Source of the DNA: a virus
Reading direction: 5' to 3' (one strand)
DNA length: 64,000 nt
IMG/VR virus record: IMGVR_UViG_3300001041_000002
Location: 37,420 to 101,419 of that record
How positions within the stretch are numbered: position 1 is the first letter of the stretch; the number at the start of each line of letters is the position of its first letter. The notes beneath the pieces are model-generated. The model was not told the DNA's origin, searched no databases, and saw nothing but the letters and a program-made list of their open reading frames with translations. This document shows, one piece after another, positions 11,971-52,200 of the stretch. A program made the position numbers and the translations under genes.

Positions 11971-12540
11971 ATGGAAGGAATAGAGTTAATAGAATTAGTG
12001 GACGATATAGAAGAAGAGTGGAGGGCTATTCCTGGATTTGAAATGTATTTAGTTAGTAATTATGGAAGAGTTTATACAAAACATCGCAATAAACTTCTTT
12101 CCCCTGCAGATAATGGTCGTGGATACAAAATGGTGTCAATTAGTAAAAATAACATAGCAAAGTTGCATTTAGTACATAGATTAGTTGCAATGTTATTTAT
12201 ACCAAATCCATTAAATCTTCCAGAAGTTAATCATAAAGAAGGATTAAAATATAAAAATAGAGTTTTTGATCTGGAGTGGATGACAAAATCCGAGAATATG
12301 CAGCACGCTGTAGATAATAAATTGCTTTTGCCACACTGGAAGGGAGTATTTGGTAAAAACCATCATAATAGCATAAAAGTGGATCAGTTTTCTAAATCTG
12401 GAGAATTAATTGCTACTTATGATTGTGGAAAAGAAGCAGAAAGAAAAACTGGTATTTTACAGTCTAATACAAGCTCATGTTGTACTGGCAAATTAAAGTC
12501 TGCTGGAGGATTTATATGGAAACATTCTGTAATTAAATAA
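11971..12540 (+). CDS. NUMOD4/HNH homing endonuclease (189 aa)
   Basis: The domain order is clear: NUMOD4 (EEEWRAIPGFEMYLVSNYGR, residues 15-35), an HNH core (LVHRLVAMLFIP, LPEVNHKEG, DLEWMT, NMQHAV) and a C-terminal NUMOD1 repeat (KVDQFSKSGELIATYDCGKE, TSSCCTGK). It begins on the base after the helicase stop. This is a free-standing homing endonuclease likely to cut helicase alleles or the intergenic site of related phages. No intron is visible around it. Confidence 0.9.
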   Translation: MEGIELIELVDDIEEEWRAIPGFEMYLVSNYGRVYTKHRNKLLSPADNGRGYKMVSISKNNIAKLHLVHRLVAMLFIPNPLNLPEVNHKEGLKYKNRVFDLEWMTKSENMQHAVDNKLLLPHWKGVFGKNHHNSIKVDQFSKSGELIATYDCGKEAERKTGILQSNTSSCCTGKLKSAGGFIWKHSVIK

Positions 12541-17306: not shown

Positions 17307-18002
17307 ATGACAACTAAAAAAATAGGAATTTGTGCGTGGAAGACTGGAGAAAACTCTGTTGGAGTAACTCTATCTTACATATTATTCGCAGAACAGTTTG
17401 GTGAAGTAATAATGCTTATGCCAAATCATGAGTTTAGACCAGATCTAGATCTATTATTGCTCCCAGGTGGAGTTGATTGTGATCCTAGAACATATGGCGA
17501 AAAACCATCATTCATGACGCAAAAACCAGATATTCAAAAGGAATATTTCGATAGAGTGCATTTGCCTAAATACATTAATAATCAAACTCCTATTTACGGG
17601 ATTTGCCGCGGACAACAATCTGTGGCAATCGCCCTAGGAGGAAAACTAATTCAACATATGTATCATGAAACTAATAAACCTGATGATCCAAGTAAAGCTG
17701 TTCATAAAATAAGTATCGATACCACTAATTTCCCTAATTATAGGGATTTCTGTGATAATAATGTTGTTATGGAAGTTAACTCAAGACACCATCAGGCTGT
17801 TAGGGAAAAGTCATTACCAGATGATTTGGTTGTTATAGCTAGGCATAATAAAGATAATCATGTTGAAGCATTAGCTCACAGAACTCTTCCAATTGTTACA
17901 GTTCAGTTTCATTCTGAAGATCTCTATGAACCAGAGCCCTTTGACTTTGCCTATCGGACAATTATGCATTTGATAAATACTAGAACTTCAATATTAGGGT
18001 AA
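17307..18002 (+). CDS. class I glutamine amidotransferase/gamma-glutamyl hydrolase-like (PuuD type, 231 aa)
   Basis: The peptidase C26/PuuD fold is readable: LLLLPGGVDCDPRTYG (oxyanion strand), nucleophile elbow YGICRGQQ with Cys100, and the His-Glu pair in VQFHSED (His202, Glu204). PuuD-type enzymes cleave gamma-glutamyl amide bonds without a partner synthetase. In this cassette a role in cutting or editing a gamma-glutamyl-linked product is plausible. The catalytic triad looks complete. First of two such proteins in the cassette. Confidence 0.85.
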   Translation: MTTKKIGICAWKTGENSVGVTLSYILFAEQFGEVIMLMPNHEFRPDLDLLLLPGGVDCDPRTYGEKPSFMTQKPDIQKEYFDRVHLPKYINNQTPIYGICRGQQSVAIALGGKLIQHMYHETNKPDDPSKAVHKISIDTTNFPNYRDFCDNNVVMEVNSRHHQAVREKSLPDDLVVIARHNKDNHVEALAHRTLPIVTVQFHSEDLYEPEPFDFAYRTIMHLINTRTSILG

Positions 18003-18003
18003 T

Positions 18004-18696
18004 ATGGAATATTTAGCAGACTATGAATATGTTGTTAATGGTATTGTAAAAAAATGTAAATCAATATGTTTTAGTGAAATTTTTTATCGAAATAATAATA
18101 CAGACAAATTACCAATAGAGAGTCTCAAAATCAAAATGTATAGAAAATCATACACAGATCAACATAAATTAGAGTTTGATAAAGATGAGATTAAGTACGT
18201 TTTTGAGAGACTTAGCCATATAATAAATCCACCAACTATATCAGATAATTTACTAGAAGAAGATCCTGGGTTAACGTTAGATTTTGTATTTAACAAAAAC
18301 ACAGATGCTTACGTTAAGGTGGTGTGTACTATTTCTAGATATTTCTACGAAAGACAAAAGAATAGAAATAAAACATACGCAGGAATGATGAAGGATTCTA
18401 TTGAGTGTTCAAAATTAAATCCAGATGTACCTTTTATTGAAATACTTCAATTTATGCATTTCGATGTAGATAGTGGAGGCGGTCATTCTTTGGTTAATGT
18501 GTGTGACGATTGCTGTCTACAGATGATAACGTCTGATGAAACATTTAGGAAAAATATGTTTGACAAAAATGTCCTTAATGTTTACTCTACTTCATCTGGA
18601 TCAACAAGTAGTGTGTTTAATAATGGGAATTTAGTCAAAATAACAAATACCAACGAAGAGTATTTAAAAACAATTAACGAAATAACACGAATATGA
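18004..18696 (+). CDS. unknown protein between the two class I amidotransferases (230 aa)
   Basis: A 230-residue charged protein with helices in the first half. Its second half holds LQFMHFDVDSGGGHSLVNVC, then a Cys cluster (CDDCC) and a Ser/Thr/Asn-rich segment (STSSGSTSSVFNNG). I recognise no family. Its position between two gamma-glutamyl-hydrolase-like genes, overlapping the second by ATGA, suggests it belongs to the same pathway, perhaps as a substrate-binding or carrier factor. Confidence 0.7.
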   Translation: MEYLADYEYVVNGIVKKCKSICFSEIFYRNNNTDKLPIESLKIKMYRKSYTDQHKLEFDKDEIKYVFERLSHIINPPTISDNLLEEDPGLTLDFVFNKNTDAYVKVVCTISRYFYERQKNRNKTYAGMMKDSIECSKLNPDVPFIEILQFMHFDVDSGGGHSLVNVCDDCCLQMITSDETFRKNMFDKNVLNVYSTSSGSTSSVFNNGNLVKITNTNEEYLKTINEITRI

Positions 18697-19334
18697 AAAT
18701 ATTAGTAGTAGGCGGAGATGTGCATTATGCTTCATGGATAGATAGAGAAATTGAATTCTTAGATTCAAAGATTAAGAATGTGCAACAAGCCGACTTGGTA
18801 CTCCTAACAGGAGGCGCTGATTTTAGTCCTAAATATTATGGATGCACAGCAAATAAAAAAACACACTCAGATCCAACCAGAGATTCAGTAGAAATGGAGT
18901 TTTTTAGTGTAGCTAAGGGCTACGGTATACCGATGCTTGGGATTTGTAAAGGTGCTCAGGTTTTAACCGCCTTACAGCCTAATGGGTACTTAGTCCAACA
19001 TGTGAATGGGCACGCTGTTTTTTCTCCACATGAGATACAGTTTAATAATGGTAAAAAAATGCTAGCTACATCAACTCATCATCAGATGATGTATCCATGG
19101 AATACTAAAAATTATGAAATCATTGCGTGGGCTGCAACAAATTTATCGGATATTTATGAATTTTCAAGCGAAAAAGACAGCGTGCTTAGACTTCCTGATG
19201 GAATAGAGCCAGAGATAGTATATTACAATAATACCAGATGTCTAGCTATACAGCCACATCCTGAGAATATGTCCAAGAGTTCTCCATTAGTTAGGGAGCT
19301 TAATGAATTACTTAAAGAAAAGTTTAATCTATAA
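18693..19334 (+). CDS. second class I amidotransferase/gamma-glutamyl hydrolase-like protein (213 aa)
   Basis: The same fold as the 17307 gene but divergent. It has LVLLTGGADFSPKYYG, nucleophile elbow LGICKGAQ with Cys85, and AIQPHPE with His189 and Glu191. A shorter insertion between oxyanion strand and elbow than in its neighbour suggests different substrates. All three catalytic residues are present, so it is likely active. Starts inside the preceding stop (ATGA). Confidence 0.85.
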   Translation: MKILVVGGDVHYASWIDREIEFLDSKIKNVQQADLVLLTGGADFSPKYYGCTANKKTHSDPTRDSVEMEFFSVAKGYGIPMLGICKGAQVLTALQPNGYLVQHVNGHAVFSPHEIQFNNGKKMLATSTHHQMMYPWNTKNYEIIAWAATNLSDIYEFSSEKDSVLRLPDGIEPEIVYYNNTRCLAIQPHPENMSKSSPLVRELNELLKEKFNL

Positions 19335-19343
19335 AATACAACT

Positions 19344-19715
19344 ATGAGAAAGATAATTGTTTACGGTAGTCTTAGAAAAGGCCATGGTAACCACAGATAT
19401 TTGCTTAGTGACAGCCAGTTGTTATCTACTGAGGTAATTAATATACCATTCGCTATGATTTCGTTGGGCGGATTTCCTGGTTTGATTCCGTCGGAAGAAC
19501 ATCATGATATAACCGTAGAGGTGTATGAAGTGACAGATGAGGTTTACCGCAGCGTGGAATCACTGGAGGGCTATCCCCGCTTCTATCAAAAAGCTATAGT
19601 ACCAACATCTCTGGGAGACTATGAGATTTATGTATTGGAAGATCAGAGATATCAAACTGACGACATAATAGAACACGGCGATTGGAATAAACACTATACT
19701 CCTAGATATGCCTAA
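19344..19715 (+). CDS. gamma-glutamylcyclotransferase/AIG2-like protein (123 aa)
   Basis: N-terminal VYGSLRKGHGNHRYL is the substrate-binding loop of the GGCT fold; GGFPGLIPSEEH and SLEGYPRFYQKAIV supply the other conserved elements, with Glu in the LEGYP block. GGCT enzymes turn gamma-glutamyl groups into 5-oxoproline and a free amine. Its neighbours also act on gamma-glutamyl or amide bonds. Length (123 aa) is right for the single-domain family. Overlaps the next gene by 8 nt. Confidence 0.85.
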   Translation: MRKIIVYGSLRKGHGNHRYLLSDSQLLSTEVINIPFAMISLGGFPGLIPSEEHHDITVEVYEVTDEVYRSVESLEGYPRFYQKAIVPTSLGDYEIYVLEDQRYQTDDIIEHGDWNKHYTPRYA

Positions 19716-20079
19716 ATATAATGATATTTCTGTTAAGGCTAAACCTGGATTTGCTAGATTCACATATACAGTAAGAGTATCTAATAAGATAATTACTAAG
19801 TGGTTTTCTGAAAATAGTAGAGAAGGCGGGGAATATAAACTTAGAAAAGGTGAATTCCCAGAAGAAAGGTTAGCTAGTATATATTTATCATGCACTAAAA
19901 GCGATGGATTAAATTTTCTCGAAGAAGTTTGTTCTAAAACCAACATAAGACTTTTGGACATCAAGAGTATTATAAATAAAAGATATAGTGATGAACTCAA
20001 AAAGGTTAAAAATCAAGTTAATCGCATGAATACTATTTTTAAGAATAAAATAACACAACTTGAGAATGAGACTATTTAA
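19708..20079 (+). CDS. hypothetical protein with coiled-coil tail (123 aa)
   Basis: Residues 1-50 are beta-rich and basic; residues 80-123 are a heptad-like charged helix (INKRYSDELKKVKNQVNRMN, then NKITQLENE). It is coupled with the GGCT gene upstream and overlaps the ATP-grasp gene by 14 nt. It could be a scaffold or adaptor of the cassette; no family recognised. Confidence 0.6.
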   Translation: MPKYNDISVKAKPGFARFTYTVRVSNKIITKWFSENSREGGEYKLRKGEFPEERLASIYLSCTKSDGLNFLEEVCSKTNIRLLDIKSIINKRYSDELKKVKNQVNRMNTIFKNKITQLENETI

Positions 20080-20893
20080 GCCCCAGATTAGAACCAAAAA
20101 TTTCAGTGCTGATGATTTAAAAGCAAGAAATGCTGGTATTGGTGAATTTCCAATGAGAGCTATAGTTAGGTTTGGCAGTAGGACAACTACTGCTGAAGCC
20201 TATCCGAATGCTTACGGAGTCCGACCAATTATTGAAGTAAATACACCAGAGGCTTGTCATAATAGTGGGGATAAAATCCTCATGAAAGAATGTTTTGATA
20301 GAGCTGGAGTTAAGACTGCAAAATGGAAATTACTTATTTCAACAATAGGCAATATTGATGAATGGGATATCTATCCTGCAATAGTAAAGCACAAAAATTC
20401 ATGTAAGGGTAAGGGAATTTATCTTATTGAAAATAGAGAAGATTTGGTTGAGTTCAATAGGCTTAACAGACTTTCTGATTATATCATCGAGCAATATTTA
20501 CCTTATACTAAGGAGTATAGGCTGCATGTAACTAAAAATGGTTGTTTCTACACTTGCCGTAAAATGCTTAAATCTGATGCAGAAGAACGCTGGCATCGTC
20601 ATGACACTAATTCAGTTTGGATCATGGAAGAAAATCAAGCCTTTGATAAGCCGAAGAATTGGGATGATGTAGTCTCTGAATGTGTCAAGGCACTGAATGC
20701 AGTTGGATTGACAGTAGGTGCTTGTGATATTAAGATTCAGTCTGAGAAGGGTAAGCGTGCTGATTATGTTCCTGATTTTGTGATACTTGAGATCAACTCA
20801 GCACCCAGTTTTGGCACTGTAACATTAGAAAAATATCGTCAAGAATTACCTAAAATTATTAATGACAAAATAGCTAATTATGGGAAAGAGTAA
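20066..20893 (+). CDS. ATP-grasp ligase (275 aa)
   Basis: Set at the ATG at 20066. The protein has typical ATP-grasp features: an N-terminal domain (residues 20-70) including FGSRTTT; PAIVKHKNSCKGKGIYLI (nucleotide strand and flexible loop); YIIEQYLPYTKEYRLHV (hinge, then the ATP-binding Glu); and GACDIKIQSE with FVILEINSAPSFG (metal-binding E-N). ATP-grasp enzymes join a carboxylate to an amine through an acyl phosphate. It may provide one ligase activity of this cassette. Probable ligase of an amino acid or peptide carboxylate. Confidence 0.85.
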   Translation: MRLFKPQIRTKNFSADDLKARNAGIGEFPMRAIVRFGSRTTTAEAYPNAYGVRPIIEVNTPEACHNSGDKILMKECFDRAGVKTAKWKLLISTIGNIDEWDIYPAIVKHKNSCKGKGIYLIENREDLVEFNRLNRLSDYIIEQYLPYTKEYRLHVTKNGCFYTCRKMLKSDAEERWHRHDTNSVWIMEENQAFDKPKNWDDVVSECVKALNAVGLTVGACDIKIQSEKGKRADYVPDFVILEINSAPSFGTVTLEKYRQELPKIINDKIANYGKE

Positions 20894-22049
20894 TTTCACT
20901 ATATGGGAATTAATTAAAGATAAAAATCCAAAATACATGATTCAAGAGTGCATGATGCACATAGCAAATTGCACTTCAGATTTTAAAATAATCATACCAC
21001 ATGAATGGCTTAACGACAAATTAATAAAGGAAGATGTTTATAGGTGGCTAGAAATTGGCAATAAGACACTATTCCCAGCCAAAATAAGGGAAATAACAAT
21101 TTCAGAGAAAGACACGAAATTGTCTGTAGGAGCTTGTAGAATGAATGGAATTTACTATGGATTAAACGTTGAACCCAGAAAACTGAACCAAAGAGAAAAA
21201 TATAGATCTTCAGATGTTTTAAGTATGCCATTGGGGGCAATAAGATCTTTTAGTGTTTCAATAGAAGAACTAAAGAGTAGTTCTTATAGAAGCATAGGAT
21301 TTAATGTTTCATCTAACAGGCTAAAAGTTAGGTCTATTGGTGGATTAATAGACTTAAACAACTCAAGTGATACGTGGGGAGCACATGTCGATGATTTATG
21401 TGTGTATGGTACAGATGAATTACTTAAAGACTATGTACTTAGAACTTATGATGAACTATCGAACAGAGGGTGGAGGGCTCTTCCTGCATATGAAGTTACT
21501 ATTGACTGTAAAAATGTCATAAGTAAAACTCATAGGTTATCAATACTATCTTTCTACAGATATTTATATAGTAGCAGGTATCCAGATGTTGTATATAATG
21601 CATTAAGGTTGGTATCTATTGGTATCGATCCATGGGAGGCACTGTACGCATCATTAAGCAAAATCAATGGTAATTATTATAATTATTATTCACTACTTTC
21701 TGCTCCAGGATTCAAATCTATAGAAAAAGTTTCCAAAGATCTTAAAATATATGATTCAGTAAACAAATCTTTTTCAATAGATCGACATGATAAGCATTTG
21801 TATGTAGATTTAAGTGGATCGGAGGAGAATATTATTGAGAATGTTAATAATTTTGTTGAAAAGTCATTAACAGGAGCTAAAGCAGAAGATAAATTCAGGT
21901 TTATATGTATAAATGCATCCAAAACATTGACTAATAATAAAGTTTATACATCGGCGTGTTTATCATATGATAAGAAAAAAAATTTTTTGTGTGGTGATGA
22001 TTATAAATATAGATACTACTCATCAAGTAGATTTAAGCAAGTAAAATAA
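20880..22049 (+). CDS. unknown cassette protein (389 aa)
   Basis: A 389-residue protein overlapping the ATP-grasp stop. N-terminal helical region, a beta-rich central part (LNVEPRKLNQREKYRSSDVL; SIGFNVSSNRLKVRSIGGLI), and a WGAHVDDLCVYGTDEL segment. I recognise no family. Because it is sandwiched between an ATP-grasp and a COOH-NH2 ligase, it may be a substrate-handling subunit or the protein that is modified. Confidence 0.7.
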   Translation: MGKSNFTIWELIKDKNPKYMIQECMMHIANCTSDFKIIIPHEWLNDKLIKEDVYRWLEIGNKTLFPAKIREITISEKDTKLSVGACRMNGIYYGLNVEPRKLNQREKYRSSDVLSMPLGAIRSFSVSIEELKSSSYRSIGFNVSSNRLKVRSIGGLIDLNNSSDTWGAHVDDLCVYGTDELLKDYVLRTYDELSNRGWRALPAYEVTIDCKNVISKTHRLSILSFYRYLYSSRYPDVVYNALRLVSIGIDPWEALYASLSKINGNYYNYYSLLSAPGFKSIEKVSKDLKIYDSVNKSFSIDRHDKHLYVDLSGSEENIIENVNNFVEKSLTGAKAEDKFRFICINASKTLTNNKVYTSACLSYDKKKNFLCGDDYKYRYYSSSRFKQVK

Positions 22050-22064
22050 CAAAAGTTTAACAAA

Positions 22065-22913
22065 ATGAATTTAATTAACATAAACAACATTACGATTGGA
22101 TCTGATCCAGAGTTTTTTATTGTTACAAAAGATGGAGAAGCATATCCATCAACGGAGTTATTTAAGGGGACTAAAGAGAATCCTGAAGATCAAGGTGGCG
22201 GATATGCTTTACTTACTGATAATGTTCTTGTAGAAGGTAATATTCCACCAGCTAATAATGAGGCTGAATATGTTGAATATATGATTAATCTTCAGAATAT
22301 GATCAATAGTGTTCTAGAAATTCGTGGCATGAAACTATTCGCATCAGATTCAATGAAATATAAACCAAGATTTCTTGAGCATCCAGAAGCTAACGTTTTT
22401 GGCTGTAGTTCATACAAAAACGCTTGGGAGTACGGTTCATTTTCTGCTGAAAATATGAGTCATTTGCCTATTCGGGTAGCTGGTGATCACCAACATGTAG
22501 GATACCAATTACTTACAGATAAATACTCCAAGAAAGAAATGAATCGTTATATCGCAAGAGCTTTCGATTATTTCTGCGTATGGCCTTCAAGACAGCACTA
22601 TAATGATGACTTCAGGGCTAAGTATTACGGGCCATATGGGGTATACAGAGATTGTGACTACGGGCTCGAAGTTAGGGCTCTAGGTGGTCATTTTACGGCT
22701 CCTGAGCATCTGTCTTGGGTATATCAGCAAACTATTAAGGCCGTAGAATTTTGTTCTGTAGAGTCTAATTTGATGCTTTTAGAACGAGTTAATAATCCGA
22801 TAACTGAAGATATTGAGTCAACTGAACAATACTACAAAATACTAGGTATTGATTATAAAGAATTATTAATAACCGAAGAATTATGCAAGACGAGCTCATT
22901 GGTTTCGAAGTAG
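22065..22913 (+). CDS. phiEco32-type COOH-NH2 ligase type 2 (282 aa)
   Basis: The family's conserved blocks are present: IGSDPEFFIV near the start, then LTDNVLVEGNIPPANNEAEY, GCSSYKNAW, VAGDHQHVGYQLL, YYGPYGVYRD and YGLEVRALGGHF. These acidic and His residues form the divalent-metal/ATP site of the glutamine-synthetase-like fold that makes amide bonds. Published computational work (Aravind group) placed phage members of this family in amidoligase-amidotransferase gene neighbourhoods and predicted surface or peptide modification. Confidence 0.85.
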   Translation: MNLININNITIGSDPEFFIVTKDGEAYPSTELFKGTKENPEDQGGGYALLTDNVLVEGNIPPANNEAEYVEYMINLQNMINSVLEIRGMKLFASDSMKYKPRFLEHPEANVFGCSSYKNAWEYGSFSAENMSHLPIRVAGDHQHVGYQLLTDKYSKKEMNRYIARAFDYFCVWPSRQHYNDDFRAKYYGPYGVYRDCDYGLEVRALGGHFTAPEHLSWVYQQTIKAVEFCSVESNLMLLERVNNPITEDIESTEQYYKILGIDYKELLITEELCKTSSLVSK

Positions 22914-23353
22914 CTAAACTAGCTAAGGAAAAAGGATTTAATGAAGAATGTATTTCTGGATATAGAAAGAAAAAAGATTTAATGACTATTGATAGAAGTG
23001 AAGAATCTTATTTTGCTGGAGCATCAAGGAAATTTAAAAATTCTGAATTAGAATCTTATAATAAAGATTTTCACGATGACTGGGTTGTTATATATACAGC
23101 ACCAACGCAATCCCTTCTTCAGAAATGGCTCAGAGAAGTTCATAAAATTTATATTGAAATAAGAAATTACCAAGAATACAAAAAGGATAATTATGCTCAT
23201 ACCTTAAATTTTACATATGATTCAAATTACAATGATGATAGTGGAAATAAAATTGGGCAGATTATATCTAGAAAGTATTATGATTATTACGAGCTTGCTC
23301 TTGAAGCTGGACTTTTAGATGCACTAAAATTAATTAAAACTAAAGAATGTTAG
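22883..23353 (+). CDS. conserved phage protein (156 aa)
   Basis: The pattern FEVAKLAKEKGFNEECISGY near the start and APTQSLLQKWLREVHKIYI in the middle is one I recognise from many uncharacterised phage and prophage proteins. No enzymatic motif. It overlaps both neighbours (31 nt upstream), indicating tight coupling in the cassette. Confidence 0.75.
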   Translation: MQDELIGFEVAKLAKEKGFNEECISGYRKKKDLMTIDRSEESYFAGASRKFKNSELESYNKDFHDDWVVIYTAPTQSLLQKWLREVHKIYIEIRNYQEYKKDNYAHTLNFTYDSNYNDDSGNKIGQIISRKYYDYYELALEAGLLDALKLIKTKEC

Positions 23354-25320
23354 AATTATTCAATTCAATAATATTAATACTAATAATTCATACGGCTATA
23401 TATAGAACACTAGGATATAAAACACCTGGAATACTATTTTGTGGCCTTTTTGGATATATCGGAAAGCGTAATAATCATAATTTTAACTGGGATAAATTTA
23501 ATCATCTCGGCTTAGATAATGATGAGCGCGGCGGAGACTCCGTGGGAAGAGCTGTTGGAGATAATATTGTTAAGTTTGTAAATAACAATAAAGTTAAGAC
23601 AACATATCAAGAGTATGTTATAAATCATAAAAATGATGAGCCATCACACATAGCTATTGGACACACCAGAAAGGCTAGCGTTGGAGTTGTTAATGTTACT
23701 AATGCTCAACCCATAGTAATAGATCTTCCAAATAATCAAAAGTTTGTAATGGTTCATAATGGGACTATATATAACTGGGAGGATTTAGCTAAAAGTCATG
23801 GTGTAGAGAGCGAAGGTAAAACTGATAGCATGGTTCTCGCTGAGATAATAGTAAAAGATGGATATGATGTACTTAGAGAATACAATGGAGCTGCAGCTTT
23901 AATAATAAAAGACGATAGAGACGCAGATACATTAAAGGTGTTTAAGGGACAGTCAAAAAACTATTCGTCAAAACTTGAAGAAGAGAGACCATTGTTTTAT
24001 TATCAAGAGAACGAAACCAGTATGTATATTTCATCAAAAGAAGATGGACTATATTTTATTGGAGGACTTCCAGATAATATCGTTGACTTCAATTCAAATA
24101 TGCTATATACAATCTTTGAAGGACAAATAATCAATCAAGAAGAATACGATAGATCTGATTGTTCTTCATGTAGGATATGGCCTAAAACCAGTAACACGAA
24201 CTTCTACGGAACAAGATATAGCGCGTACGATGATTATGAAGATTTGAGAGGTCGTAACGAAGCCGTGCCATATACAAATAAGCCGAACATGAGGAAAGAT
24301 ACTATTCCGACATCAAGTGATGTTAGAAAGATCATTCAGGCTAAGCTTAGGTATTGGTTTTGTAAATCTGGAAGTAGCCCATACTATGCAAATGGTATAA
24401 TAACTCTCGATGAAGAAGGTCAGCTTTGGGGAAAAACCAGTAAATCTCTGGGTAAAGAATATTATTTTTACGCTGGGATAATGCTTAAAGACTCCAAATC
24501 ATATTATGAAGTAAAGGAGAAGTTTGGCAAGGCAAGGCACTTTATAGACAATGATGTTAATATCTCTGAAATGTGTAAGTATTCTGTATATCCAGTATGT
24601 ACGATTGACTCACAATTACCAGCATATGGGAATATTAAAAGTCACGAATACAAGCTTGGTATCAATGGACAAAAACCGTATTGGATAACATCTTTCTATA
24701 CTGGAACAATTGAACCATTATTTTCTTATAAACGATACCACGTGTATTCAGGGGATCTGGCTAGCACTTTTTTTAATAAAGATGCAAAGACACCAAACCA
24801 TTCAATAATTTCAACTCAAACACCGGCACTACAATCAGAGTTTAAGCCAATTGACATAAATTTAAAAGATGGTATTAGTTCTGATGTTTCAAGAGAACTA
24901 GCAGAAAAAGCAGTAAACAGTGCAATTGAAGTTGTAGGGTTTGCTGGGAATAACGATAAGTCCCCATTTAAAACTCCATACAAAAAAGCATTAGAGGAGA
25001 TCTATGAGGATATCGAAGATGCTGATTACGACTTGAAAAATGATTTCCCAGTAGAAGACGACGACACTATTGACGATGATGATATCGATGATTATGATGA
25101 TTGGGAATCATCAGATTATGTCAGTAAAGTAATCAGCCTTGGTATAGATCAAATATTAAAAAGTATCGATGAAGTAATTCAGGAGATCGAAATGCTTGGT
25201 GTTAGTGGAGAAAATGTTAGTAATGCGTTGTCTAACTTTTATAAACTTCAAGATCCATTTATGAATATAAAAGAATTTAAGAAAAAACCACTTATAATAT
25301 CTTACGATGATCAATTCTAA
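23347..25320 (+). CDS. class II glutamine amidotransferase with C-terminal extension (657 aa)
   Basis: A GAT-II (Ntn-type) glutaminase domain occupies about residues 32-220: FCGLFGYIGK, RGGDSVGRAV, IGHTRKASVG, FVMVHNGTIYNW and GKTDSMVLAEII. The catalytic Cys should be the N-terminal residue after Met removal, but here Cys32 follows a 31-residue, partly hydrophobic leader. The rest (residues 230-657) is an unrecognised region with an acidic linker (VEDDDTIDDDDIDDYDDWES). It could supply ammonia for amide bond synthesis by the adjacent ligases. Confidence 0.8.
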   Translation: MLELFNSIILILIIHTAIYRTLGYKTPGILFCGLFGYIGKRNNHNFNWDKFNHLGLDNDERGGDSVGRAVGDNIVKFVNNNKVKTTYQEYVINHKNDEPSHIAIGHTRKASVGVVNVTNAQPIVIDLPNNQKFVMVHNGTIYNWEDLAKSHGVESEGKTDSMVLAEIIVKDGYDVLREYNGAAALIIKDDRDADTLKVFKGQSKNYSSKLEEERPLFYYQENETSMYISSKEDGLYFIGGLPDNIVDFNSNMLYTIFEGQIINQEEYDRSDCSSCRIWPKTSNTNFYGTRYSAYDDYEDLRGRNEAVPYTNKPNMRKDTIPTSSDVRKIIQAKLRYWFCKSGSSPYYANGIITLDEEGQLWGKTSKSLGKEYYFYAGIMLKDSKSYYEVKEKFGKARHFIDNDVNISEMCKYSVYPVCTIDSQLPAYGNIKSHEYKLGINGQKPYWITSFYTGTIEPLFSYKRYHVYSGDLASTFFNKDAKTPNHSIISTQTPALQSEFKPIDINLKDGISSDVSRELAEKAVNSAIEVVGFAGNNDKSPFKTPYKKALEEIYEDIEDADYDLKNDFPVEDDDTIDDDDIDDYDDWESSDYVSKVISLGIDQILKSIDEVIQEIEMLGVSGENVSNALSNFYKLQDPFMNIKEFKKKPLIISYDDQF

Positions 25321-27816
25321 AGATTTTACTGTTACAAGTGTATCTGGAAAGCAACTTCCAAGAAACAGATGTAGATATATAAAAAAAGAATACTACGAAA
25401 TAAACGTAGATTGTTTTCTGATGCCAGATAATTGTTGGCACAGGGTCAATAATGGGAAGATAGCTTTTGATAATGAAATCAAACAGTATGTCATGATCGA
25501 AGGCTCTTCTTTAAGAGAGGGTATTATAGGCATTAAAGAAAATGGCGAATTTTTGTTTGGAATGTTTTCTAGTAATCCTGCTAAAAATACAGAAATAGAT
25601 AATATTCCATGTATTTCATATGAAATAGCAGAATCTTTAGGAGCGAAAGAAAGGATCGCCACCGGAACATTTTATACTGAAGAAAAAGCTAAAACTATCG
25701 CTGGATTTAATAATAGGGCCATTCTTAAAAAGTATTCCTTTCCACTAGATTATTCTGCTGGGCCAAGGATAAGAATGTTCTCGGAAGCATATAATCAACT
25801 CTATAAACCAAAAGATTACTATGGTTTAAAACCAGTTTTTGGTAAAGAGCTGGGTAATACTACTTTTGGTTAAAATAAAAAACACTGCAATATATTTTGT
25901 TTTCTGGGTTTAATATAGTATCTTTGATACTTATTAATTCATAAACCAGATTACATGACTTTAAAATTAAAAGAATTACGTGAATTTACCAATGATGTGT
26001 TATTAGATTTTAATGATGGACTTTTAAAAAAGGACATGGCAAAGAAACATAATACATCTATTGACATTATCTCAAAGTTAATAACAGAAAACGATCTGTC
26101 TTTTGCAAAAAGAAGGCAAATGGTCGACTGGAATCCATTCGAAAATCTGTCAGATCCTAATGTTATGTATTGGCTTGGAATATTGGCTTCAGATGGAGCT
26201 ATATTTGAAGATAGAGTTACTCTTCAGCTTGCAGAAGTTGATCGTGAGTTGGTAATAAAATACCATAAGTTCTTAAAAGAAAAGCCAACACTAAGACAAG
26301 TTGTCTGGAAGGTTGGTGGAAAAAATTTCAATGGATACATGGTTAGCTTTAGAAATAAAGATGTAGTCGAGTTTCTTGATAAGTTAGGAATAACTACAAG
26401 AAAGTCAAATACAATTAGCATGTCATTCCCAGTAAATTCCCATTTTCTTAGAGGACTAATAGATGGAGATGGAACTTTAGAGATTAGAAATATTGAAAAT
26501 AGATTGTTTTCTAGAATAAGATTTGCTACTGCATCTACAGAGATGGCATTAAGTGTAATGAAATTTTATTTGGATAATGATCTTTATTTGAGATATTATA
26601 AAGACTCCGGAGCTCATAGAAAAAGCGCAATTCACGAAATCGTTGTTTCAAGAAGCAGCGATGTTCTAAAGTTATTAGATATGTTGTATAACGACGCTGA
26701 TACTTATATGGAAAGAAAGTATCAAAAAGCCGTCCAAATCAGAAATGTATTGGATAATAACACCTTAAATTCAGGGAACCAGCGTTAGGAATCCTGAGCG
26801 AAATCTATCCACCAGTAATGGTAATTGAAGTAATGAACTGCTTCTGACAAGTAGATAGAGACGTGCAGAGACTATAATAGGTGCTCCCAAACAGGTAATG
26901 CTGTGGGAGAATGGATAGTCCGAGTGGAGAGAACCACTTGTTTGAAATTGAGACCCAGGACGGGTCAATAGCAGAAAGACACCTCATCAGAAACGGTCTA
27001 ATTCCATTGAGAGATGGAAGTCTTAAGCATGACAATATTGAACCATACGAATACACAACTATCCCTCTATCTGGAGAGAAAGGTTTGTACACTATGATTG
27101 ATGTAATGGATTTAATCAAAAAATACACTACGATTGGTGATAGGTGCGCTCTGCATGTCCACATTGGCGGATATAAACCATCAAAGGAATTTGTTGTAGC
27201 ACTACATCGTGTTGTACTGAAAATCCAAGATGAAATATATAGTATGTTCCCAACGAACTATCAATTTACGTCTGACAATGGATGGAAGCAGAAAGATTAC
27301 TGTGCCCCAATTAACGACTTGCGATTATTGAAAAGAAATTCTGTTGAAGAAAACTTCAATGTCATTTTTAATCACTATAGTGGTGGTTATAGTAAGTTTG
27401 TTAACTTTGGTTATTGTAATCATCCTAAAGATGAGGGTAACCGTGCGAAATGGAGCATCCAGGAAAGATATAAAATTGTCAACATAATCCCGTTGATTTG
27501 GGGAAACTCTGGTACTGTAGAATTTCGCGTTCATCCGCCCACACAGTCGCCACAGAAAGTTCTTAATTGGTTGTACATCTGTAATGCAATATTAGCTTAT
27601 GCTTATAAAAATTCAGAAAAAATAGCCAATTTTGCACCATTAACAGACTTAAATTTGCAAACTATCTTCTTTGATGTTTACTCATCATTGTTAGCATCAA
27701 AATTGCTATCGTATGTTGAGTGGCGTAAGGAGTATATGCAAAATATGGACGCTACTGGCAAGAAAGAGCTTGTTGAAGATTTAACTAAAGTAATTCCTTA
27801 CAGCGTTTTATCATGA
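25307..27816 (+). CDS. Amidoligase_2 protein, split by a group I intron (479 aa after splicing)
   Basis: Exon 1 is 25307-25870 (188 codons) and exon 2 is 26941-27816 (291 codons plus stop). Joining them restores TTFG + FEIETQDGSIAERHLI, i.e. the FG-E-E metal motif of Amidoligase_2. It is followed by LRDGSL, EYTTIPLSGEKG, CALHVHIGGYKPS and FNFGYCNHP-type blocks. Without splicing the product stops after FG (TAA 25871). The amidoligase would form amide or isopeptide bonds; the reading suggests an active enzyme. Nearby COOH-NH2 ligase and GAT-II fit the same chemistry. Confidence 0.85.
25896..25926 (+). promoter_or_regulatory. Bacteroidota-type promoter inside the intron
   Basis: A TTTG (25896-25899) and TATCTTTG (25919-25926, matching TAnnTTTG) are separated by 19 nt, the typical spacing of the Bacteroidota -33/-7 consensus. 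The endonuclease ATG is 29 nt downstream. It would let the homing gene be transcribed independently of the host gene. Confidence 0.55.
25955..26788 (+). CDS. LAGLIDADG homing endonuclease (277 aa)
   Basis: Two LAGLIDADG helices are visible: YWLGILASDGA (residues 72-82) and HFLRGLIDGDGT (163-174), as expected for a monomeric double-motif enzyme; each carries the catalytic acidic residue (Asp80, Asp172). The N-terminus (SIDIISKLITEN, residues 35-46) looks like an HTH region. It sits in the peripheral part of the group I intron, so it should cleave intronless amidoligase alleles and drive intron homing. Its stop codon TAG lies at the start of the ribozyme core. Confidence 0.92.
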   Translation: MTLKLKELREFTNDVLLDFNDGLLKKDMAKKHNTSIDIISKLITENDLSFAKRRQMVDWNPFENLSDPNVMYWLGILASDGAIFEDRVTLQLAEVDRELVIKYHKFLKEKPTLRQVVWKVGGKNFNGYMVSFRNKDVVEFLDKLGITTRKSNTISMSFPVNSHFLRGLIDGDGTLEIRNIENRLFSRIRFATASTEMALSVMKFYLDNDLYLRYYKDSGAHRKSAIHEIVVSRSSDVLKLLDMLYNDADTYMERKYQKAVQIRNVLDNNTLNSGNQR

Positions 27817-29413: not shown

Positions 29414-30280
29414 ATGGAAGTTACTAAATCCATTCGCAAGTCAATGATTATTCGACCAAGTGGCAGGAGCACTGATTTTATTGCCCCATCATTTGGTCAT
29501 GGATGCCTTTTCTTCAATTGTGCATATTGTTACATGAAGCGTCATAAACCAGAAGGATTGGATGTTGCGACCAATATTAATGACATATTATCTGAAATAA
29601 ACAGTCATGCGTGGTTTGCATCCGTAGAAAAGCCTAATCAGACTCACGATAGATTTGTGAGCTACGACATTTCCTGTAACGAGGATTTTGCCGCACACTC
29701 TAAATTTTATGATGTAGAAAAGATTTTTAATTTCTTTAAAGATCATCCAATAGCTTTTGCATCTTTTGCAACTAAGAAGGTTAATAAATCTTTATTAAAG
29801 TTTAATCCAGATAAAAAAGTTAGGATTAGATTTAGCTTAATGCCATCTAAGTATTCTGATATACTAGAACCATACACTTCGGACATCTTAACTAGAGTGT
29901 CCGCTATAAATGATTTTTTAGAATCTGGATATGAAGTTCATGTTAATTTTAGTCCAGTTATCTATACTTTAGATTGGAAGGAAGAGTATGAAAGATTATT
30001 TTCTCTATTGAACTTAGTAGTTAAAGATGAATACAAAGAGCAAGTGAAGGCTGAGGTTATATTTTTAACACATAATCAAGATAGACATGAGTATAATTTA
30101 GCCAATAAAATTCCAGGTGAAGACTTATTGTGGCAGCCATTAATTCAAGAAGATAAGATTTCTCAATATGGTGGAAAGAATATCAGATATAAAAGAGATT
30201 TTAAAAGTCGATTTATAAATGAATTTACAGAACTACATGATAGGGTTATACCATGGAATAAAATAAGATACATTTTTTAG
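29414..30280 (+). CDS. SPL-like radical SAM protein (288 aa)
   Basis: The N-terminus has the spore-photoproduct-lyase-family layout: KSMIIRPSGRSTDFIAPSFG followed by HGCLFFNCAYCYMKRHKP. The cysteines are Cys31, Cys36 and Cys39, i.e. C-x4-C-x2-C, one residue longer than the usual SPL C-x3-C-x2-C. Further conserved parts: YDISCNEDF, FASFATKKVNK, RIRFSLMPSKYSDILEP, GYEVHVNFSPVIY and WEYERL-type region. Phage copies probably repair DNA or modify a nucleotide; the reaction is unknown. Confidence 0.75.
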   Translation: MEVTKSIRKSMIIRPSGRSTDFIAPSFGHGCLFFNCAYCYMKRHKPEGLDVATNINDILSEINSHAWFASVEKPNQTHDRFVSYDISCNEDFAAHSKFYDVEKIFNFFKDHPIAFASFATKKVNKSLLKFNPDKKVRIRFSLMPSKYSDILEPYTSDILTRVSAINDFLESGYEVHVNFSPVIYTLDWKEEYERLFSLLNLVVKDEYKEQVKAEVIFLTHNQDRHEYNLANKIPGEDLLWQPLIQEDKISQYGGKNIRYKRDFKSRFINEFTELHDRVIPWNKIRYIF

Positions 30281-46263: not shown

Positions 46264-49200
46264 TTATCTATTACAAAATTTTCTATATAATTCACCTAAT
46301 TCTTCAATATTCTTATTATTAATATCAGTAACTGTTACTTCTAAATATTCACCTAGAGTGTCATCGTTGTTCAATTCGTTAATCAACTTGGATCTAAGTG
46401 ACGCTTCTATTCCTGTATATGCCTCTAAAGCTGGTTTTGTTTCAGCCCAATTATATTTATTTATCAAATAATCCAAAGCAGTTGCATGTGATGGTTCGCC
46501 AAGTTCCTTATAGTAAAGTATTGGTTTGCCTTTTAGCTTACCAGACTTCAGTTGTTCGCGAATCCACTGAGCACGAATGTCTTTTGAATTAATAACCCAA
46601 TCAGTAAATTTTTCAACAGCTTCTCTAACGGTTTCAGTCTTAATTAACCCATAAGCCTTTCCTTCTGGGTCGTGACTAAATGGATTGCCAAAATGTTCAT
46701 TAGAGCTAGGTATCCTAGTTGCAACTATATTACCATTAGTTATAGCAGATTTCGCTCCTTTTAAATCTCCCCAAGTCTTAATAACTACATTTTCAGATTT
46801 AGTTCTACTCCCAAGCTTATTATATATCTCAGAAGACTCACTAACAACTATTGGTTCTTTAACTTTAGCAACTTCTTCAGTCTCGTCAGCTTCTACATCT
46901 TTAATATTAGCCTGATCTAAAATTGACGCTCTAGTGAACTTGCCTTTAAATGGAATATTACCTTGAATAACACTATCTAAAAACATCTCATTCTTTTCAT
47001 ACTCTAGAGCTGCGTTAGGAATACCAAGTTTGCTAGTCAAAACATAAGTAGCTTGATTCCATGCTCTAGACATATTCTGATATAAATAGATTTGACCTTT
47101 CTCTCTAAATGATACGAATGGACTGAATAACTTTTTCTTACCATTCTCGGTAGTACCCACAATAAAGTCTTTGCGCAGTTTTTTATCTTTAGCATTGACT
47201 TGGAATATTGATGGAACTCCATTTATATAAGTTATCTGTCCAGTGATATTGCCGAATCCATCAGAATCAACTGCTGGCACCAAACTTAAATCATCGCTAT
47301 TATTTCTAAAGAACTGATCAATAAATTCATCAAATGCATTCTCATTCTCAGCTTCTTCAATCGTCTTAATCAAATAATCATTGAAAGATTGACCATCGCT
47401 ATCTACTAGATTTGAATAGAAATCTACTGGGATTAAATGACTGAATGAATTTGGTGTCAACTGAAATCCTGCTGTATAGAATGCATACTTAACAAGATCT
47501 TTTGCAAAGCTACTAAATTCTTTATCAACAGCCAAATCTGAGTCTTCCATTAATGACATCCAGTGTTCTTTAATCTGCTGTTTGTCAAGCTCAGTAAGGC
47601 TTCCAGTGTTTTTAAACTGAATTCTCTCTGGTAGATAAGATTTCTTTTCGTCCTTCTTGAACACTAATTTGTTGACAAAGAAGTTCTCTTCGTACTTTTT
47701 AGGATATTTAGTTTTGAATGCACGAACTTTCTTTGACATATTATTAATGATCTCAGTCTTATCTGAACCATCAAAGAATTCAAATCCAGTTGCAGTAAAT
47801 CCAAGTAGTTCATAATTAATCTGCTCTATCTGTTTAACAGTAAGAGTATTGGCTTTTATTGATTTAGTAATACGTTCTTTTACGTGTGAGAACGCAGGTG
47901 AAAACCATGGGAAATATTTAGATAATAGTTCTGTTGGCTTAGAAACCCCATACTCCATGAAGGCATTCTCCATTGGATAGACCATTCCAGTAAGCAATTC
48001 TTCCTGACCAATCAACTCTGGATTATCCAAAACATCTTTACGCAATTGAATAAGCTTTTCGTTCTCAGATAATGTTGGGCCAGCACCTTTAGTGTCAGCT
48101 CTGGTAGCTCTAACTAAATCAGCCAAAGCTGTAGCCTGCTTTTTAATCATCAAAAATGTATTATATACAGCCAATTGATTATCGGAGATTATATCACCTT
48201 TAGCTATCTCAGCGTACAACTCTTCTGAAGTAAATTTAAATTCCTTACCAGCCTCGGTCTGAACCTTAGCTTCTGATAATGAGAATTTGTTACTCAATTC
48301 AGACATTACTTTGGATTCAGCTTGTTTATCTGCACCTAAATTAAAATACAGTCTACTAAACTCTTTGAGTACTGGCTGTGATAAAAATCCAACAACAGTA
48401 TCCAATGGATATCCAAGTCTAGTTAATAAAGCTGCGATATCAGCAGTATATGTGTTTACATTAATAAATGAACTCAATGGGTTCTTAGCATTATCCACAA
48501 CTGCAGCCAGCCATTCAGCTACATTTCTAGATATGTAATCACCATTAGCATTTTTAATTTCGTGTAATGATGCTAGCGGTTTCCCATCAAGATTAACTGA
48601 ATTAGCTAAACTTACGTTAGTGAACTGCATAATAGCGTGGTTAGTATTGTGATTAGCGAATATACCAATCAACTGCTTACCTGTCATATTACGTTTAAAT
48701 AATTCAGTCTGCGTACTTGGCAATGCTATTGATAACATTTCATCAGCTTTCCCTTCGAGTCCGAGAACCCTCTTTGCAAGCGATTCTAGCGTTGGAAATC
48801 CACCAGGCTTAATTATCTTACTAAATGTATCTTCGTGCGTTAAAATGGCTCTAATAATGTCTATTTTAGCATTATTACGCGCTTGCTTCGACTGGCTGGA
48901 TATATCTCCATTGTATTCGTACTCAACTTTACGTATATCCTTGCCATCCATGGAAGTCTCCCATTCTGGCATCATGATATACATCTTATCAATATCGAAG
49001 TCACTACCAGAGATTGTTGTGATTTCCATTGGCAACATTACGGCTCCACCAGCACTTGCAGGTAAAAATCCAGTTACTATTAATGGTAGCATCGAATATT
49101 TATCCTCAGTAGGAATCCTATAACCAATCATCTCACGTAGATTCTGTGGAACTTTATTGATATCTAATTGTCCATTAGAGTCCAACAGTGGCTCAAAATA

Positions 49201-52200
49201 CTTCTTAGACCACCAGGGCAATTTAACCTCAGCGCCTACAAGTCTTTTGCCGTCCATAATCAGATTAAGCTCATCACTAAATCCAAATGCACTAACCTGA
49301 ACAAAAGCACCACCCTTGATTTTCTGCTTAGTAACATTATTTTTAAATACAGAGTTAAGTAAACTTTCATTAGACTTAGCGTGATATGGATGATATAATG
49401 GTAAATTAAATTGTTCTTCTAACTGACCATTCTCTCTATTAAGTCTCTTCTTAATCTCAATAGCGATCTCTCTTTCTTCACCAAGATCTCTATCTAAAAT
49501 CTCACCAAGAAGTAGATCGTGTATGCTAGATATGTTATCAAATCTATCAACTACTGATTCATAATCTTGCTTTAAGTCTTCAGAGATGATATCCTGATAT
49601 AAAGATACTAATTGATCTTTAGTAAATTCGTGACCATTAATATTAAATACTGCATCTGCAGAGATGTCTGATAAAATCAACTTTCTAATCTGACTACCAA
49701 ACAAACTCCTTGAATCAATATGATGTTCTGGAGTTTCTTGCTGTAATCCATAGTCTTCATTATTAAGTTCATGGATAGATGTCTGCTCAATATTTTCAAG
49801 ACTCTGGGCTCCAAATTCCCCAGCCTTAACAGCAGAGTTGAAGTTAGCAGATGAAATGTTATTGTTAATCATGTAATCATACAGTTTAGTCAACTCTTTA
49901 GATTGCTTAACTAACTGTGGTAACAACAAGTACTCTGAGTTTTTATTTTGTGTTGGAATAATTAAATTACCAACTTTTGTATGTCCAAAATAGAATGGTT
50001 TAATTGGTTGCATTACTAATTGCAAATCCTTACCAGAAGCTGTTCCATTGAATAATCGTGGATAAACTTCTTGTAAATCTGCATCCCAACGACCAAGACC
50101 AATCATAATATCTCTATATCTAGGAAGTGTTATATATGCTTGAGCATCTGTAACATTGATCTTACTAGAACTGTTATAACCATAAGCTCCAGCAATATCC
50201 CCAGCCTGATCAACTGGCATACCACTCTCAACCAAAGTGTCAAAGATTGTTTCAGCATGTTCTGATGGAATCTCTAAATCCTTAATATAAATACTATTAT
50301 ATAATGGGCTAATCTCTAATACAGATTTACCTTCAATTTCAGCTTGCTCTTGAGTTAATTCAAATACAGCATGAATATCCATAGTTGTCTTAGGAGATAC
50401 ATTTTGTTTATTCCTCTTCTGATAGTCAACTGTTCTACTGTAAATAGACTGAGCTGATTTATCTGGCTTGTAGAACGCTGGATCACCAGAGAACAAAGCC
50501 ATCATCTGAGTATTAGCTAAGAAGCTATTAAAAAAGTAGTCCTTATGGAATGCTTCAGTATTACCCCAACGTTTATCAATTCTATCATCATAATGAGATA
50601 TGCCTTTAGCATCCTTACCAAATACTTCTAATTTAGTAAGCCTATCATAATCTAATTTAGCTTCATTGTCCAACCAATCACTGATAGCTTTCTTTATTGC
50701 AACTTCATTACCAGAACCTACAGCCTTACGCGCATTACCAGAGTTTAAGAACGATAAAAATAAAAATCTTCTAGACTTATCAGTGTCATAATGTTTAGTT
50801 TCTTTAAGTTCATCTGGAATAGCTAATCCCTGCTTAGTCAATTCTTCTCTAGCGGCCTGACGAGCTTTAATTTGCTCTATACGGGCATTCTCTTGCTTGT
50901 AGACCTCAAATAATTTATCGACAGTCTCTTTGGTTGAATATCGTCTAAACTTAATAAATGGCATCTTAGGAGCATCTGAGACTACTGGAAATTTATAATA
51001 AACGTAATCTTTGGCTCCATTGTTAAAATACATATTAATAGCAGTATTCTCAAAATCTTTCTCAGACATAGATGTATAGCGAACGCCTTTCTCAGTGCGA
51101 TCATATTTAATTGCATCTATCTCTATATATTCAAAATTATTACGACTATCATTCTCCATCAGCTCTTTCAGCCATGGTGAATTCCTATAGAATGGAGTGT
51201 CCTGATAATATTTGATTTTATCAATAGCATTTTTCCCAGAGAATTGTGCTATTGCTCTAGATAAAAATGTAGGTACTTGATGTGCATATACTGTGTTATT
51301 TTCAGCATTTTTGAATGAAGATTCCATTAACTCAAATCTAAACTTAGATATGGTTTTAGACATTGCATCAATAGCCTCTGATTCTAAGCTAGTTGCACCA
51401 AATGGATTAACTCCAGTGGTTAACTTGCTGATAATATTATCTACATGAGCTTTAAATTCGTTAACCTTTGACTTACCTGATTTAACATATCCAGAAGTAG
51501 ATGTGACGCCTTTATTGAGCATCTCCATATCTTCAACTGTGATAGTAATACCAATGTAGTTAAGAATTCTAGATAGATCGCTCATATCTTTAGAATCATA
51601 TCTATCTTTAGCTTTTAGTCTAGAGTTTAAACTAAACCACGCTGACTTAACTTTATCAAGGTTTTCTGAAACATATTGACCATCTTTGTCTATTGTTTTG
51701 TTAAACATCGGGTCGGTAGAATTATCCTTCCATTCATCAATGAGGATATTTTTCACACCCATACGATTAGCAGACATAACTCTATACTCAGTATTTTTAG
51801 TCTCACGATCTTTAGACTGTATAACTATCTTATAATCAACGTGTGATCTATTAAAGTTAACAAACATCTTAGTCTTAAATAGATTATCTATCTGTACTTT
51901 CTCAAGTAAAGGTTTTAAGAACGGTCTAGTTACAACCATTTCAGACAACCTTTCAATCATCTCTTCTGAGTCAACTATGTTAGCTAATTCGCGCTGGATA
52001 TCAGCATATATCGTATTAAAATCTTGGTAAATTGTAAAGCCGAGGTCATCAGATATATTATCGCCTTTAGAGTCAACTTTAGGTATGTAACTAAGTTCCT
52101 TACGTACTTCATTTGATAATGATTCCTTTCCAGATAATTGTTCTGTCTTAATCTGCCATCCTTCATTTTGTGATTCTTCCTCAAAAAAGTCCATCAAAGG

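Follow-up and report, generated by a model that had tools for sequence, protein, structure and literature searches.

A conserved cassette of predicted amide-bond enzymes in crAss-like phages, with a probable group I intron in its amidoligase gene

The window analysed here, a stretch of 64,000 nucleotides (bases 37,420–101,419 of a 101,419-base virus record), carries at 17307–27816, all on the + strand, seven enzymes for which the class of chemistry, namely the making, feeding and cutting of amide bonds, is well founded. It is very likely, judging from the anatomy of the cassette and its occurrence in relatives, that these genes form a conserved unit (Table 1). We give a probability of about 0.5 to the reading that the enzymes act in one shared gamma-glutamyl or isopeptide-type pathway. 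The crAss-like setting first proposed for this DNA agrees with its nearest annotated relatives: in annotated phages, the nearest relatives of its ATP-grasp, COOH-NH2 ligase, glutaminase (GATII) and amidoligase proteins are those of Cellulophaga phage phi14:2 and of gut phage cr108_1 (Steigviridae, Asinivirinae). A large late-region ORF of the window matches Bacteroides crAss-like phages. Elsewhere, the window holds, on the minus strand of its late region, an ORF of 3,600 residues (46264–57066), and a spore-photoproduct-lyase-family radical SAM protein (29414–30280; TIGR03886, 318 bits, under the cut-off of 437.6).

Table 1. Features of the cassette in the window, and the leader-associated inserts of three related contigs
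Feature	Position	Strand	Basis or remark
C26a, Peptidase_C26/class-I amidotransferase-like	17307–18002	+	PF07722; relatives in same cassette place in L009–L011
U-family protein ('unknown' 1), probably a divergent member of the cr108_1 gp029/gp030 family	18004–18696	+	profile and hhalign
C26b, Peptidase_C26/class-I amidotransferase-like	18693–19334	+	PF07722, phrog_7218; start overlaps 18004 stop
GGCT/AIG2-like gamma-glutamyl cyclotransferase-fold protein	19344–19715	+	PF06094; YtfP 1xhs match
Small ORF	19708–20079	+	no relatives found in Pfam, PHROG or cassette relatives
ATP-grasp (RimK-like) ligase	20060–20893	+	phrog_2599
'Unknown' 2, follows ATP-grasp	20880–22049	+	relatives in same place in L009–L012
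phiEco32-type COOH-NH2 ligase (GS-like)	22065–22913	+	phrog_3815
Class-II glutamine amidotransferase (GATase_6; GATII)	23347–25320	+	GATase_6 match; adjacent Amidoligase_2
Hydrophobic leader, 31 codons, before GATII catalytic Cys codon (23440–23442)	23347–23439	+	leaders in homologues
Amidoligase_2 exon 1, 188 codons, ends ...NTTFG	25307–25870	+	aligns to N-terminal part of relatives
Insert splitting Amidoligase_2, probable group I intron	25871–26940	+	boundaries from protein alignment; Rfam Intron_gpI
LAGLIDADG homing-endonuclease ORF within insert	25955–26788	+	PF14528, 35.5 bits
Amidoligase_2 exon 2, starts FEIET...	26941–27816	+	PF12224; ORF 26911 minus 10 intron-encoded residues
ATGTGT remnant / HNH-type endonuclease gene / leader	L080 6561–7256; L047 12347–13019; L107 6771–7437

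Each of the seven proteins fell, by Pfam and PHROG, into the family named for it in the original prediction, the Pfam match being marginal for the ATP-grasp protein. The two C26 proteins scored 104.5 bits (C26a, E 9e-30) and 59.6 bits (C26b) against PF07722 (cut-off 20.5), and C26b matched phrog_7218 with 122.7 bits. By inspection, both contain a GxCxG nucleophile motif and an HxE motif (GICRG/FHSE and GICKG/PHPE), consistent with the Cys-His-Glu triads that had been claimed. The GGCT-fold protein reached 67.5 bits against PF06094 (GGACT, cut-off 22.8) and matched the solved YtfP 1xhs by sequence (E 4.6e-8); the glutaminase reached 56.3 bits against GATase_6 (cut-off 27). For the ATP-grasp protein, phrog_2599 (RimK-like) gave 114.4 bits and Pfam TTL 20.8 bits versus a cut-off of 20.1; the protein keeps the conserved ExN motif, is 51% identical to cr108_1 gp028 and 44% to phi14:2 g038, and does not reach TIGR00768, the RimK alpha-L-glutamate ligase (33.7 versus 143.4 bits).

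The assignment of ORF 22065 to the COOH-NH2 ligases by HMM held with PHROG (phrog_3815, COOH.NH2 ligase, 140.5 bits) but not with Pfam, since PF14395 missed the window protein; this profile was matched by six of seven aligned members, with E-values up to 0.1 and 6.4e-14 at best. Alignment of its relatives revealed conserved GxDxEF, HxHxG and ExR columns, and in the alignments the expected ligase residues are kept across relatives at 22–54% identity. No cassette protein reached the cut-off of a curated NCBIfam equivalog, the best scores being far below, so that the specific reaction cannot be named.

Conservation of the cassette was examined by scanning viral contigs with alignments, which gave 138 relatives for the ATP-grasp protein and 64 for the amidoligase; after deduplication, 63 contigs had enough flanking sequence. 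Viral-contig scans with one protein at a time (20880, 18004 or 22065) returned no relatives, and alignment queries were needed. In all 63 distinct contigs, ATP-grasp, COOH-NH2 ligase, GATII and Amidoligase_2 were found together on one strand, with GATII within 80 bases of Amidoligase_2. The predicted linkage thus holds, and scattering of the genes in all relatives was not seen. C26 was also nearby in 58 contigs, GGCT in 50, primase in 49 and uracil-DNA glycosylase (UDG) in 31. The commonest order was primase-GGCT-ATPgrasp-(C26a)-C26b-COOHNH2-GATII-Amidoligase_2-UDG, with some variation, and the cassette usually sits between primase and UDG. What was a loosely described neighbourhood becomes, for crAss-like phages, a defined module that hardly varies. 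Looser versions were found in a Leptolyngbya phage and in Pa11-like, phiEco32-like and LUZ24 phages. A scan of genome contigs with the ATP-grasp alignment gave weak, partial matches only, and hence did not point to a close bacterial source. One lineage, whose cassette is rearranged (L057, L062, L063, L066, L067, L038), has a second short GATII-like ORF right behind the amidoligase.

The amidoligase gene of the window is split. ORF 26911–27816 matches Amidoligase_2 (PF12224) from profile position 72 onward only, and its homology to phi14:2 g041, cr108_1 gp034 and the Lbo-JY46 protein sets in precisely with residue 11. What comes before in these three proteins aligns to ORF 25307–25873. When 25307–25870 and 26941–27816 are joined, the product reads ...NTTFG/FEIET..., where the relatives have FGLEFET. 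The family originally given to ORF 26911 was thus right, but this ORF is the 3' exon only, its residues 1–10 being intron, and the first exon lies upstream. The case for a split gene is made by alignment with the uninterrupted genes of relatives; splicing leaves the Pfam score practically unchanged (39.8 bits for ORF 26911, 40.1 spliced, cut-off 22).

The insert is 1,070 bases long, with a group-I-like core and a LAGLIDADG ORF. Against Rfam Intron_gpI (RF00028) it scored 42.2 bits (E 4.8e-9), under the gathering score of 50. Its core (26755–26945) folds with a z-score of -3.07; P7- and P9-like pairings were found, the P9-like hairpin adjoining exon 2, and several equal candidates were obtained for P1/IGS. 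The ligated exons correspond to the uninterrupted homologue. The insert is therefore a probable self-splicing group I intron, and we infer that the amidoligase transcript is spliced. Contig L088 is 100% identical to the window over 5,121 bases, insert included.

Inspection of the related contigs revealed further interruptions of cassette genes. The amidoligase is interrupted at its KWNxxxR region in four contigs (L034, L078, L122, L060), C26b at the GVCRG nucleophile in two (L013, L020), C26a just upstream of the nucleophile motif in one (L082), and the COOH-NH2 ligase at LRxxG/HIHIGY in two (L078, L074). The amidoligase insert of L078 scored 45.3 bits with the Rfam group I model. Among the ORFs tested, those in the inserts of L034, L122, L013 and L082 and in the L078 amidoligase gave matches to HNH endonuclease families of phages; LAGLIDADG_3 is carried by the COOH-NH2 ligase insert of L078. 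Judged from these contigs, the cassette is a homing hotspot, in which introns and endonucleases repeatedly invade at the catalytic codons of the enzymes. Strongly constrained sequences would be expected to take up inserts at such codons, which speaks for the shared pathway favoured below. Another homing endonuclease ORF, of the NUMOD4/HNH kind, lies at 11971–12540, a few kilobases before the cassette begins.

The catalytic Cys of class-II glutaminases is N-terminal. In the window GATII, 31 codons stand ahead of the catalytic Cys, with no start codon directly before it, and the junction of leader and Cys reads MLELFNSIILILIIHTAIYRTLGYKTPGILF/CGLFG. Besides the window, such a leader was found in 36 of 81 distinct GATII homologues from the fetched loci, the other 45 having no membrane-like segment; none was found in the other cassette proteins. 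The leaders are 22–37 residues long, with a membrane-like stretch (mean Kyte-Doolittle 2.4) followed by basic residues, and have Leu at -2 in 31 of 36 cases. Changes between related leaders numbered 98 at third codon positions versus 65 and 40 at the others; third positions vary most, which is what a translated leader would lead one to expect. An ancestral leader with a single loss was rejected, as the trait needs 21 changes on the GATII tree. A lipoprotein signal was rejected as the main reading, given that basic residues separate the hydrophobic stretch from the Cys and that Tyr, Phe or Asn occurs at -1.

Contigs L073 and L080 are 94–97% identical around GATII, and L080 has after ATGTGTGGAATAAT an insert holding an endonuclease gene followed by the leader, with 11 bases common to both ends. 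L047 and L107 are organized likewise (Table 1), and for 33 leader-bearing GATII genes no endonuclease gene of this kind lies upstream. It is probable that the leader travels with the endonuclease gene. Freeing the catalytic Cys1 of a leader-bearing GATII should need processing. We tentatively propose, as a possibility short of even odds, that a homing-endonuclease element at the GATII start/Cys1 codon brings a new start codon and a membrane-like leader with [TVI]-L-[SGANY]-Cys at its end, that the precursor is cleaved or cleaves itself, and that the window GATII has lost the endonuclease gene. Under homing, DNA of a Met-Cys-type GATII such as that of L073 may be cut by the L080 endonuclease at ATGTGTGG. 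If true, selfish elements would have, next to introns and inteins, a third means of occupying a critical codon. The clustering of inserts on catalytic codons, together with the GATII leader, raises the question of how selfish elements keep the host enzyme working.

The two interleaved unknowns, 18004 and 20880, are present as described, but their count was incomplete, ORFs being found also at 19708 and 22883. Their standing as best candidates for novelty was not upheld: 18004 fits a family located in the cassette, and relatives of 20880 occupy the slot that it has here. The family in question, called here U, is one fast-evolving family that includes cr108_1 gp029 and gp030, its ORF lying after ATP-grasp or by C26b in many contigs. 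Against the U profile, 18004 scored 19.3 bits (E 2.3e-4 over about 5,900 ORFs), the best of 500 shuffles being 10.6, and hhalign gave 92% (P 5e-7); leaving the fused members out of the profile lowered the match to 16.6 bits (E 0.0013). Two residues that never vary in 22 U-family rows, Cys22 and Arg112, are both present in 18004, which probably belongs to the family. Relatives of 20880 lie right behind ATP-grasp in L009–L012 (phmmer 1e-37); its link to the U family is weak (hhalign 18%, P 0.001), and it perhaps belongs there. A tblastn search of 50,697 phage records with both proteins gave no matches. The AF2 model of 18004 was fair (pLDDT 69) and a PDB fold search with it found no match below E 0.38; that of 20880 was unusable (pLDDT 44).

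In two contigs (L023 11617–13125; L031 7356–8891), a C26 domain is naturally fused to a U-family domain, which suggests that the U family partners the C26 amidase. ORF 22883 was rejected as a cassette partner, as it is of a dispersed multicopy family; this small protein (22883–23353) has several copies in crAss-like phages, and its family is also found in cr108_1 and Lbo-JY46.

In the shared pathway that we favour, an amide-bond module would be co-inherited as one unit, on a single strand, in the part of crAss-like phage genomes given to replication. Its three ATP-dependent ligases, one ATP-grasp and two GS-like, would join carboxylates to amines; the class-II glutaminase and the C26 class-I proteins would supply ammonia or remove gamma-glutamyl groups; GGCT would cleave gamma-glutamyl amides; and the U-family protein would probably be a substrate-binding or acceptor subunit of the C26 amidase. 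Most likely, a small molecule or a peptide of the host would receive a gamma-glutamyl or isopeptide-type modification, which the module would build and trim in the early phase of infection. What was observed are the gene families, their order and co-conservation, the catalytic motifs and the C26-U fusions, and from these we infer reaction direction, substrate, timing and benefit. The C26, GGCT and GAT folds include members with other activities, which counts against this explanation.

A rather unlikely alternative is that a protein of the host or of the phage, for instance a ribosomal or replication protein, is the target of RimK/TTL-like peptide tagging or polyglutamylation by the cassette. 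The RimK-like ATP-grasp and the location between primase and UDG would fit, as would the prediction, in PMC4431377, that related phage R2K ATP-grasp enzymes modify host proteins. However, no conserved acceptor gene was identified, and the presence of two GS-like ligases together with hydrolases speaks for a small-molecule path of several steps and not for one tag. Modification of cell-envelope peptides or lipid-linked precursors, leading to altered receptors or a superinfection block, is considered unlikely. Iyer et al. 2009, as cited in PMC10580990, proposed that the phiEco32 module modifies the cell wall and prevents superinfection, which matches the earlier statement that related amidoligase neighbourhoods are predicted to modify cell surfaces. 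The membrane-like N-terminal segment of the window glutaminase and weak D-Ala-D-Ala-ligase-like NCBIfam scores of the ATP-grasp point the same way. Yet this segment is absent from more than half of the GATII homologues (45/81) and from all other cassette proteins, the genes sit among replication genes, and no cassette protein matched a known anti-phage defence family among the PADLOC profiles, or a known superinfection family.

Synthesis of a modified nucleotide or a DNA hypermodification, as the neighbouring primase, exonuclease, RNR and UDG genes might suggest, is very unlikely, because a scan of proteins from part of the genome showed no DNA-modification enzyme, and phages whose replication modules differ carry the cassette too. 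That the genes are ordinary metabolic morons without a shared pathway, clustered by chance or recombination, is hardly credible: gene order does vary somewhat among contigs, but the four core genes share one strand in every contig and their catalytic residues are conserved at roughly 30–50% identity.

The shared pathway has counterparts in the gamma-glutamyl-amide shuttles, of the PuuA/PuuD type or in aniline glutamylation and butirosin protection. As in these, a GS-like or ATP-grasp ligase is paired with a C26-type hydrolase or GGCT; unlike them, the cassette proteins reach no equivalog cut-off. Phage amidoligase neighbourhoods of the phiEco32 and LUZ24 type were reportedly described by Iyer et al. 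in 2009. By its gene content the cassette belongs to this known class of phage modules: both bring together an ATP-grasp protein, a COOH-NH2 ligase, Amidoligase_2, a class-II glutaminase, a class-I amidotransferase and GGCT, and genes for ATP-grasp, GS-like ligases and class-II glutaminase are contiguous here. PMC10580990, PMC3890496 and PMC6209634 lead to these neighbourhoods; the papers found are annotation, and no published experiment on the target of the module was found among them. The crAss-like version differs in being compact, with a nearly fixed order, often two C26 genes and the U family (C26-fused in two contigs), in the long N-terminal region of its amidoligase, and in being hit by introns and homing endonucleases.

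The cassettes of Cellulophaga phage phi14:2 (g037–g041) and of cr108_1 (gp028–gp034) share with the window the core genes, their order and the place between primase and UDG, but their amidoligase genes are uninterrupted. phi14:2 has no C26 and U genes in this stretch, whereas cr108_1 has no GGCT in the cassette and its GATII starts directly at Met-Cys. Since phi14:2 is a carrier cultured on Cellulophaga baltica, the substrate of the module is testable. For the inserts, the nearest likeness is with nrdA/mobE of phage Aeh1, as described in PMC2988022, where an endonuclease gene has likewise entered an enzyme gene at a critical place and the enzyme has to stay functional. In contrast to Aeh1, the GATII insert occupies the start/Cys1 codon, and behind it come a new start codon and a hydrophobic leader.
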